A stretch of 61,346 nt of DNA from NCBI GenBank assembly GCA_016178625.1, contig JACOSX010000136.1, positions 1 through 61,346 of the forward strand, given 5' to 3'. Under the pieces are notes generated by a model, which saw nothing but the letters and a program-made list of their open reading frames with translations, did no database searches and was not told where the DNA came from. Positions within the stretch are counted from its first letter, which is position 1, and every line of letters starts with the position of its first letter. The position numbers were made by a program, and so were the translations under genes. Of the stretch, positions 37,740 through 40,162 are shown in pieces. This DNA is from Ignavibacteria bacterium. Its GTDB lineage: Bacteria > Bacteroidota > Ignavibacteria > UBA10030 > SZUA-254.

Positions 37740-37780
37740 GACTGCACATCAATAGGGTGAATAATGTTTTAATTCTCCTC

Positions 37781-37808
37781 AGTATACAATAAAATAGATC
37801 TGAACCAA
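37781..37808 (-). promoter_or_regulatory. Promoter for rlmI
   Basis: Minus strand TTGGTT (37803-37808), 16-bp spacer, TATACT (37781-37786), about 40 bp from the TTG start. It separates rlmI from the upstream MNIO cluster. Confidence 0.55.
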
Positions 37809-37883
37809 AATACTTTTATATTGAAAATCGTGGGATACCAGTCAGACTAGAGGTGTGTCTTACGAGTTGAAATTCAATGCAGG

Positions 37884-38432
37884 TTAGTGTGTTCCTATTG
37901 CTGCTTCTTGGTGAATTGTTTGAACCTCAAATAGATGTGGATAGCGGGCAGAGATAATAGTTCGATACAGTCCACGAGTGTAATGAGCATGATCAGGGTT
38001 GGAAGTGAGAATGTTATTCAAGACGAGGTGAGGATGATATTCCCAATCGACGGTATAGCATGCACTGTCACCGAGCTTTACTTTGATTAATGCGCGCTCG
38101 AATTGTGCTGTTGCAGCAATCAGGGTATTTTGATGACAGCTTAATTCATCAAGAAATGCAATTCCAAGGGTTTCAATGAATGGGGAAATCGCATGATTAT
38201 TGAAATATTCTTTCACAATTTCATCAAAGAGATGTTGTTGTTTGAGCAGCGATGAAGTGAGAGGGCAGTATTGTTCGATACCTAACATTCTCCACCACAC
38301 GGCGATTTCCTTCACGAGTCCCAAGTGAATAGACTGTGCTATTGATCGGATATAGGCATCATCCTCCGCCGTAACTTCATAACGGGATTTTAATAAATGA
38401 AGTAATTTCTTTTGAAGAGCTGCGAGGACCAA
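37884..38432 (-). CDS. MNIO partner protein (DUF2063-like), putative precursor-recognition subunit
   Basis: A 182-residue mainly helical protein without signal peptide. It has the layout of the partner proteins that accompany DUF692/MNIO enzymes in RiPP pathways: a helical N-terminal half and a C-terminal part with TAQFERALIKVKLGD and VDWEYHPHLVLNNIL, matching the pattern of the DUF2063-type fold. Such partners bind the precursor leader and present it to the MNIO. It starts at TTG 38432, three bases after the MNIO stop, with GGAGAA (the end of the MNIO gene) serving as ribosome binding site. Assignment rests largely on context. Confidence 0.65.
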   Translation of the reverse strand: MVLAALQKKLLHLLKSRYEVTAEDDAYIRSIAQSIHLGLVKEIAVWWRMLGIEQYCPLTSSLLKQQHLFDEIVKEYFNNHAISPFIETLGIAFLDELSCHQNTLIAATAQFERALIKVKLGDSACYTVDWEYHPHLVLNNILTSNPDHAHYTRGLYRTIISARYPHLFEVQTIHQEAAIGTH

Positions 38433-38435
38433 TTG

Positions 38436-39332
38436 TTATTCTCCGAACGCTGTGTTGAGGTTTTTCAGCTCGCTGATGATAGTTTCATAACCGAGTGAAG
38501 GGATCGCCTCTCGAAGAAATTCGAATGTGACCACATCGATCGTTCCTTCAGCTCGATCCACGACATGCTGTGCAAGAGTGAGTGTCGACTGTTCGAGTTG
38601 TCGTGAATGAATATCAACTTTCATACCGCGATATTCGGTGCCGCCGGCTACATGCACTTCTCGAACTGCCTTGAGATGAAGTTCAGCGAGAAACTCCTTA
38701 ATGTCAAAATGATGATTGTGAGCGTCGCATTCCATATTATAAACATCGAGTATCAAACCACAGCCGGTTCTCTCAGTAAGAGCATTTAAAAATTGAGCGT
38801 CGGTATAATCGCTCTCATCATCAGGGAGGAGATGAACAACGTTCTCAAGAAGGAATGGGATTTTATATCGTTCATGAATTTGGAAGACCCTTTCACAGAT
38901 CATGTCGAGAGCTTCATTGGTTTTTGGCAATGTAAGCATAGTACCGAGTGACTCACCGTCGACCATCGTGTAACCAAGATGTTCGCTGTGCCAGGGAACG
39001 TCGATTTGTTCCAAAAAATCGTCGAGGAGGCGGAGATAGTTCTCAGAATACCCATCATATGAGCCGATCGATAGCCCAATACCGTGAACGATGATGTTAA
39101 CAGCATGTTGGGCGTTTTTTAACTCTGCCATGATTTCTTTGTTGAGCGTTATTGTATCACCATTGGTTTCTGCAATACTGTCTGGGGTTACTTCAATATA
39201 CTCAACATGAGGAAGCATCCGCTCAAGCAAGAAAGGGTCGTGTCCCTCGTAGGTTGCACCTATTGCTGGGCGGATGCTTCGACGTCTCGATGGTAGTTGA
39301 GAGGCTACCGTGCCGAGCGATGCGTTGTTCAT
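38436..39332 (-). CDS. DUF692 / MNIO multinuclear non-heme iron oxidative enzyme
   Basis: A 298-residue TIM-barrel protein of the DUF692 (MbnB/TglH-like) family, which use two or three iron ions to modify Cys or other residues in ribosomally made peptides. Candidate ligands are all present: H83 (VHGIGLS), H118 (HSEHLGY), E163-N164 (LLENVVH), D196 and N199 (LDVYN), H227 (VHVAGG), D240 and H242 (DIHSRQ) and E271 (FEFL). It lies 10 bp downstream of the small CPSC peptide gene and 3 bp upstream of the partner gene, as one transcript. The product of the reaction is unknown. Confidence 0.9.
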   Translation of the reverse strand: MNNASLGTVASQLPSRRRSIRPAIGATYEGHDPFLLERMLPHVEYIEVTPDSIAETNGDTITLNKEIMAELKNAQHAVNIIVHGIGLSIGSYDGYSENYLRLLDDFLEQIDVPWHSEHLGYTMVDGESLGTMLTLPKTNEALDMICERVFQIHERYKIPFLLENVVHLLPDDESDYTDAQFLNALTERTGCGLILDVYNMECDAHNHHFDIKEFLAELHLKAVREVHVAGGTEYRGMKVDIHSRQLEQSTLTLAQHVVDRAEGTIDVVTFEFLREAIPSLGYETIISELKNLNTAFGE

Positions 39333-39342
39333 AACGGCAGAG

Positions 39343-39624
39343 TTAGAACTCGCGCTGGACGCTGATGTCTCTTACTTCCCGGATATCCTGGAATTTTTCG
39401 GCTAACATTTTATCCTGAACCCTTATCCGGAAATCAAGTCCCGCGAGGCCGCATGATGGGCAGCCGTGGAGTTTGAACACCCTGTCAAGACTGGCGTGGA
39501 GACCTTTAGGTGTGATTCGTTCATCTACAACCAGTTGTATTGTGCCGGGACGAAGCGCTCCTACTCCTGTAAGAGGGGAAGCTATCTCGCTTCCAAGATT
39601 CATAGCGGTTGGTTTAATTGGCAT
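39343..39624 (-). CDS. Putative RiPP precursor peptide with CPSCGLAGLD core
   Basis: A 93-residue protein, first gene of the MNIO operon, with a strong ribosome binding site (CGGAGG six bases before ATG). It contains only two Cys, C55 and C58, in HGCPSCGLAGLDFRIRV, followed by a charged tail. There is no signal peptide. Position and size fit an MNIO substrate, but the Cys pair lies mid-chain rather than at the C-terminus. Alternatively it is a small metal- or Fe-S-binding helper: the CPSC region faintly resembles the NifU C-terminal motif, though the rest of that domain is missing. Precursor status is inferred. Confidence 0.7.
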   Translation of the reverse strand: MPIKPTAMNLGSEIASPLTGVGALRPGTIQLVVDERITPKGLHASLDRVFKLHGCPSCGLAGLDFRIRVQDKMLAEKFQDIREVRDISVQREF

Positions 39625-39828
39625 ACATCCTCCGATAGAAATGTGAATGGAATATGTTAGTTAGATGACGCAAGATTTGAAATTGTCCGAAGAAAAGAAA
39701 TGGGGAGGCGAAGAACCGTCGATCAACCTTACAAGGGGTGACCTGAAGAATTTGACTTCGCTCATCGTTAAGAACGTTGGGGCTAGAAGGTCCCATGGCT
39801 TACTCCCGATATCATGGTATGAAACTAT
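39625..39828 (-). promoter_or_regulatory. About 200-nt 5' leader of the MNIO operon
   Basis: Between the predicted transcription start near 39828 and the peptide ATG. It contains a possible 60-codon upstream frame (39614-39796) whose ATG has GGGAG six bases ahead and whose stop overlaps the precursor start by 11 bp. It also contains a CCATG...CATGG hairpin near its 5' end. No known riboswitch was recognised. The upstream frame's composition (Phe-rich, no family) does not look like a normal protein, so any role would be regulatory. Confidence 0.45.
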
Positions 39829-39834
39829 AAGGAG

Positions 39835-39863
39835 AGTATACAAAAATAAAAGGCATTTGTCAA
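39835..39863 (-). promoter_or_regulatory. Strong promoter for the MNIO cluster
   Basis: Minus strand TTGACA (39858-39863), 17-bp spacer, TATACT (39835-39840). This is one of the best promoter matches in the window. The stretch 39864-40021 upstream holds nothing recognised. Confidence 0.8.
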
Positions 39864-40021
39864 TGGTTTTATTCTGATATTTCGATAATTTTTTCCTTGC
39901 GATAAGGATATTATATTTATAGTGGTTAGAAATCTCCGCTCAAGCCGAATATCCGCTATGAGTTCGGAAATGAAAAATGACGGGATGTTTTTTAGGAAGG
40001 TTCTTAATGAAAAAATCCACA

Positions 40022-40078
40022 GGTCGACGACTCCCGACGGGTCTATCGACCCATCGGGTCGTAGACGACTTGTCGAGG
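40022..40078. repeat. Palindromic module, family B (stand-alone)
   Basis: The core 40029-40066 (GACTCCC-GACGGGTCTATCGACCC, then GGGTCGTAGAC) matches the hairpin nested inside the element at 14353-14542. GGTCGAC / GTCGAGGT flanks extend the stem. Confidence 0.65.
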
Positions 40079-40103
40079 TGAGTTCCCCTTGATGGCATCC
40101 TAA

Positions 40104-40141
40104 TAAAAAAACGTCAGCCCATCGTCCCATAGGCTGACGTC
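40104..40141 (-). terminator. Intrinsic terminator of aldolase gene
   Basis: On the minus strand ACGTCAGCC (40132-40140) pairs with GGCTGACGT (40111-40119), followed by a run of T (40105-40110). It lies 22 bp after the aldolase stop. A classic rho-independent terminator. Confidence 0.88.
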
Positions 40142-40162
40142 ATTTCTACCCAACGTTTGATC

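Follow-up and report, generated by a model that had tools for sequence, protein, structure and literature searches.

A three-gene unit of an Ignavibacteria bacterium probably forms a horizontally moving RiPP-like cassette, in which an MNIO enzyme with its partner would oxidise Cys58, next to Gly59, of a small protein that may then serve as an intracellular metal-binding product. The unit lies in the window, the whole stretch of DNA analysed (61,346 nucleotides, contig JACOSX010000136.1). The general reading of the trio, a substrate peptide modified by an MNIO together with a partner, is well supported by comparison with distant homologues; the peptide's role as substrate, the modified site, the chemistry, the cellular location and the metal role are what we infer from it. 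MNIOs perform varied, hard-to-predict iron chemistry, and small proteins without signal peptides are of interest as their substrates. Here, two natural insertions bound the functional unit at three genes, distant homologues fix the substrate motif, and one branch of the MNIO tree unites at least three related types of substrate (CxxCGLxGxD, CRPCLSGLD and CxxCxSGFD), so that substrate, partner role and chemistry are directly testable with a minimal three-gene set.

The peptide, MNIO and partner genes stand in tandem, 10 and 3 bp apart (Table 1), which agrees with the first-pass annotation of this DNA, where a 93-residue two-cysteine protein, a DUF692/MNIO enzyme and a helical partner had been described as one operon. 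GGAGG is located 4 nt ahead of the peptide ATG. The strong promoter also claimed there survives as a match at 11 of 12 consensus bases, about 210 nt 5' of the start codon. The word "strong" does not, as this is a consensus match only, promoter-like sites are not in excess in the region (4 found against 5.6 expected), and the consensus may not be that of the host. Rfam elements were absent from the window.

Table 1. Features of the three-gene locus (window positions)
Feature	Coordinates	Strand	Remarks
Peptide gene	39343..39624	minus	93-aa candidate substrate with C55 and C58, without signal peptide
MNIO (DUF692, PF05114) gene	38436..39332	minus	298 aa
TglI-like partner (PME-type 2) gene	37884..38432	minus	182 aa, TTG start
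CPSCGLAGLD core motif (C55 to D64)	39433..39462	minus	From peptide alignments; consensus (G)CxxCGLxGxD
Predicted beta strand, residues 28-33 (TIQLVV region)	39526..39543	minus	Low-confidence model and alternating hydrophobics in the alignment
Sigma-70-like promoter match TTGACA-17-TATACT	39835..39863	minus	Consensus match only
Inserted cassette, interval from RlmI-like methyltransferase gene to aldolase gene	37740..40162		About 2.4 kb here against 47-146 bp in seven same-family genomes

The two cysteines of the peptide, at positions 55 and 58 (HGCPSCGLAGLDFRIRV), are the only ones it has and lie 35-38 residues from the C-terminus, that is, mid-chain. Exactly two cysteines and no hydrophobic N-terminus were found in all 13 complete peptides of the family that were examined, which confirms both the cysteine count and the missing signal peptide noted at first pass. 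Across an alignment of 14 sequences, C58, G59 and G62 are invariant and G54, C55, L60 and D64 nearly so, while the remainder diverges. The Granulicella peptide (L033) is the sole member with a shifted first cysteine (GGCNCGLTG), having CxC instead of CxxC. The peptide gene of an Ignavibacteria MAG (L038:6419-6634) is situated 3' of the partner gene and encodes a motif shortened to CLACGFVG, without an aligned D64. Pairwise pN/pS values of 0.24-0.49 point to purifying selection and indicate a selected protein rather than a chance reading frame. Neither Pfam nor NCBIfam gave a credible match for the window peptide, and the 14 family peptides gave only chance-level, single-member matches there. 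Its structure model, a beta-alpha-CxxC loop-beta arrangement, is poor (pLDDT 61); a fold search with it found no match and is uninformative for that reason.

The enzyme is recognised by PF05114 with E=3.4e-54 (184 bits against a gathering score of 25). All ten metal ligands proposed from the sequence at first pass are present (H83, H118, E163, N164, D196, N199, H227, D240, H242 and E271), and nine of them never vary among 12 orthologues, while N164 hardly does. From H118 on, TglH has the same residues at the aligned positions, as does MbnB at most of them, H83 falling outside both alignments. The protein nevertheless scores far under the cut-off of every curated MNIO equivalog model: BufB (156 bits, cut-off 310), HvfB (131, cut-off 360), ApyH (75.7, cut-off 400), ChrH (58, cut-off 600) and MbnB (34.7, cut-off 325). 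A signature that is LDxNN in bufferin-type enzymes reads LDxYNxxC[DN] in enzymes of the window clade, with LDLHNLECD in L044. Within residues 198-202 (window 38727-38741), a clade-conserved Cys202 is found a few residues past the metal ligand N199.

The partner was modelled by AlphaFold2 from an 11-member alignment with a pLDDT of 87. Foldseek against the PDB ranks the TglI chain (268 residues) of the TglHI complex first and second, with probability 1.00 and TM 0.61 at formal E-values of only 0.01-0.02, and gives no other credible fold match; the MNIO chain of that PDB entry has 304 residues. A sequence-profile search against the PDB returned only weak helical-repeat matches, which were discarded. 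For the window protein, no Pfam or NCBIfam model gave a credible match, and none of the 11 family members matches Pfam, DUF2063 included. The partner profile also matches, end to end, the C-terminal extension (about 180 aa) of HSG-type MNIOs (164 columns, probability 94%, E=2e-7). This fusion of a partner domain to related MNIOs ties the third gene to an MNIO independently. By its modelled fold, the window partner is thus classed as TglI-like, PME-type 2. The earlier proposal of a precursor-MNIO-partner module is supported by a peptide conserved under purifying selection and by a partner that resembles TglI and occurs fused to related MNIOs.

An alignment-based scan of 84,980 species yielded at least 590 candidate stretches and at least 550 relatives, the best 80 of which were kept. 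Among these best 80, a distinct set of 13 MNIO loci stands at 39-59% identity, and the next relative is at 33%. The set comprises Granulicella, Bryobacterales, Terracidiphilus, two Streptomyces, the Ignavibacteria MAG, three Dyadobacter, two Malikia, an actinobacterial MAG and an Acidimicrobiaceae fragment. Among the matches listed, orthologous MNIOs are rare but occur in Acidobacteriota, Actinomycetota, Pseudomonadota, Ignavibacteriota and Bacteroidota. All 13 loci contain a short ORF whose product carries a motif of the CxxCGLxGxD type; it lies directly 5' of the MNIO gene in twelve and 3' of the partner in the Ignavibacteria MAG; a motif scan of the best 80 loci found no match beyond this set and L022. 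A partner homologue lies 3' of the MNIO gene in eleven loci (E=1e-14 to 1e-38), with a weaker match (8e-6) in L044; L046 is cut off by a contig end. The full trio thus accompanies 11 MNIO orthologues from five phyla, and a twelfth (L044) with the weaker partner match, among the matches listed. In both Malikia loci (L041:6471-8357 and L042:6385-8376), a protein of 628-663 aa with a weak transthyretin-like match is encoded directly 3' of the partner; it is absent from the other loci.

Linkage was also assessed with a peptide HMM run over whole genomes irrespective of location. The 198 Lysobacteraceae genomes gave no true match (the two weak ones, in L123 and L124, were spurious: one is a frame on the antisense strand, the other part of a long coding frame without relation to the peptide). 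The 298 Streptomycetaceae genomes gave two true matches, both adjoining an MNIO and a partner, and the 349 genomes of the Granulicella class gave three, two of them known and one new (L212), with an MNIO (53% identity to the window) and a partner (37%) directly downstream of the peptide. None of these five true matches is an orphan copy. The single window peptide searched in 59 relatives gave no match, single-sequence searches found nothing outside its own genome, and searches of phage and viral contigs were likewise negative. Peptide homologues away from DUF692 genes, which would speak against the module proposed at first pass, were accordingly not found in any of these searches. Genomes of the family loci hold the peptide once each, and the cassette occurs in about 1% or less of the genome draws searched. 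Across the loci compared, no transporter or protease gene is shared near the trio, in keeping with the annotated lack of a transporter, and no other candidate substrate gene is common to them.

The boundaries of the unit are marked by two insertions. Seven genomes from the same family as the window have the aldolase gene and the RlmI-like gene 47-146 bp apart, whereas in the window they are separated by 2.4 kb that hold the trio and its upstream region; the operon described at first pass as isolated is indeed an insertion between two otherwise adjacent genes. GC content is 41% in the partner gene and 45% in the trio, compared with 51-53% in the neighbouring genes; along the interval it falls to 38-49%, with values of about 50-54% in the flanking genes. 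The Dyadobacter trio has a sigma-factor-like gene on one side and an M3 peptidase gene on the other, and in species of the genus without it these two genes are adjacent, about 145-330 bp apart in four loci and about 880 bp in a fifth. Clear flanking repeats were not seen at the insertion. As the two insertions are independent, they delimit the functional unit to exactly three genes. Judged from sequence comparison, the trio is a self-contained cassette that moves horizontally between distant bacteria.

Related MNIOs are preceded by other small CxxC peptides. GCRPCLSGLD peptides are encoded upstream of such enzymes in five Lysobacteraceae genomes (L125-L129), and (G)CxxCxSG(F/W)D peptides in L022, L158, L160 and L161; in a joint alignment of the three subtypes, C55, C58, G62 and D64 are invariant. 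The MNIO tree, which is midpoint-rooted, has long branches and is without TglH, ApyH, ChrH and MbnB, places the three CxxC-precursor types together beyond a 100/100 branch, apart from the bufferin, EGKCG and Cys-rich types. In it, the window enzyme and its 12 orthologues form their own monophyletic clade (support 100/98), and the Lysobacteraceae enzymes form a separate one. The MNIOs of L158, L159 (= L022), L160 and L161, about 470-490 aa long, have a C-terminal domain matching the window partner and represent a fused MNIO-partner subtype. In the Lysobacteraceae loci with CRPCLSGLD peptides no partner gene was recognised, and in L125-L128, L155, L156 and L164 a cysteine-dioxygenase-family gene (PF05995) lies just 5' of the peptide-MNIO pair. 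The nearest plasmid MNIOs belong to bufferin operons and the MNIOs in the window's order to EGKCG types; both were set aside as distant. Two genomes of that order (L003 and L005) hold EGKCG (oxazolin-type) precursor-MNIO operons instead of the cassette.

In the proposed mechanism, the MNIO and the TglI-like partner would form a complex, and the partner would bind the small cytoplasmic protein through that protein's N-terminal beta-strand region and present its CxxCGLxGxD loop to the iron site of the enzyme. The strand at residues 28-33 is a candidate for this recognition; since the peptide model is poor and gave no fold match, this part of the model is a guess. Known MNIO-partner pairs oxidise cysteine with O2, and Cys-modified products of MNIOs most often serve to bind metal. 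By analogy with such pairs, the MNIO and O2 may perform a four-electron oxidation of Cys58 beside Gly59 and perhaps of Cys55 too, which would act as a second ligand or be a second site. The product would most likely be a thiooxazole or an oxazolone/thioamide-type heterocycle, about -4 Da per modified cysteine; in EGKCG precursors, 4 H are lost for each cysteine of a Cys-Gly core (PMC13097082). Because neither a transporter nor a dedicated protease consistently accompanies the trio, the product is probably cytoplasmic, and the modified small protein may stay in the cell and bind a soft metal such as Cu(I). A bolder and more tentative idea is that a small folded cytoplasmic protein receives a yet-undescribed modification, for instance a Cys-Cys or Cys-backbone crosslink within CxxCGLxGxD, and that the cassette is a mobile intracellular metal/redox module, a cytoplasmic counterpart of bufferins.

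Oxidation of a single cysteine competes with several other readings. Chemistry of the ChrH/DybH kind, in which both cysteines of CPSCGLAG would be consumed in a macrocycle and a heterocycle rather than a single thiooxazole-type ring, appears rather unlikely. The window core is strikingly similar to CPxCGxG cores, including CPGCGLG (HymA) and CPACGMMM (PMC12636315), and two cysteines occur in every peptide of the family, yet the enzyme scores far below the ChrH cut-off, the proline between the cysteines is not conserved, one member has CxC, and the partner is TglI-like, not ChrI or the ChrH helical bundle. It is also improbable that the small protein is not the substrate at all and serves as a metal carrier, as a CxxC subunit of zinc-knuckle-like or redox type, or as a second partner, with the MNIO acting elsewhere. 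CPxCG does resemble a rubredoxin or zinc knuckle, the peptide looks partly folded in its poor model (beta-alpha-beta), unlike a classical leader-core peptide, and the surroundings contain no conserved protease or exporter; an accessory subunit would leave an identical picture of selection and gene linkage. However, a knuckle would not tolerate the CxC of L033, the loci share no other substrate candidate, and the gene order is usually the precursor-MNIO-partner order of bufferin-type operons (PMC12452194).

Little credence is given to a peptide that is cleaved and exported by housekeeping machinery to act extracellularly as a metallophore or antibacterial. The idea draws on the M3 oligopeptidase gene found 29 bp 3' of the partner in Dyadobacter koreensis, and most RiPPs are cleaved and exported. 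The M3 peptidase gene, however, is a core gene, present in 48/48 Dyadobacter genomes searched with most loci shown lacking the trio, and was therefore rejected as a maturation protease; the peptides also have no signal peptide and share no transporter or protease gene.

Among known systems, TglHI (3-thiaglutamate/pearlin) has the same ligand set downstream of H118 and a partner of the same fold, but TglA is modified at an added C-terminal cysteine whereas the window pair is mid-chain, the window genes on either side encode an aldolase and an RNA methyltransferase, and enzyme similarity to TglH is weak (E=1.9e-10). ChrH, DybH and HymA (chryseobasin and lipidated macrocycles; PMC10214503, PMC12636315) combine a CPxCGxG-like core, two cysteines and an MNIO, but their cores are usually C-terminal, their partners differ and their precursors are often exported; the window core CPSCGLAG is similar, and the family consensus is a mid-chain CxxCGLxGxD. 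Bufferins and oxazolins/captophorins (BufABC, HvfABC; PMC12452194, PMC13097082) share the three-gene logic and, in EGKCG cores, Cys-Gly, yet they have a Sec signal, a DUF2063 partner (PME-type 1) and other cysteine patterns, none of which is present in the window, where the peptide has two cysteines only and no Pfam or NCBIfam match; a 100/100 branch separates their enzymes from the window MNIO. A close precedent is the prediction in 2025 of signal-less CxxC precursors ("adjamnio-7", MNIO cluster 7, representative from Novilysobacter) by Antoine et al. (PMC12452194), who found PME-type 2 partners, the type seen in the window, to accompany precursors that lack a signal peptide; the window peptide likewise has no signal peptide, carries CxxC and adjoins an MNIO gene. 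Loci L125-L129 are probably of the adjamnio-7 type, as the published representative comes from Novilysobacter, and they share C, C, G and D with the window peptide but differ in core (CRPCLSGLD) and enzyme clade. The first-pass view that the locus fits no known class therefore holds only in part: signal-less CxxC precursors had been predicted (PMC12452194) and CPxCGxG cores, some of them mid-chain as in an embedded CPACGMMM, are known from the ChrH subfamily (PMC12636315). The window clade, which no Pfam or NCBIfam model covers, is by its own motif, enzyme signature, predicted partner and apparent mobility a distinct, undescribed clade of the predicted kind.
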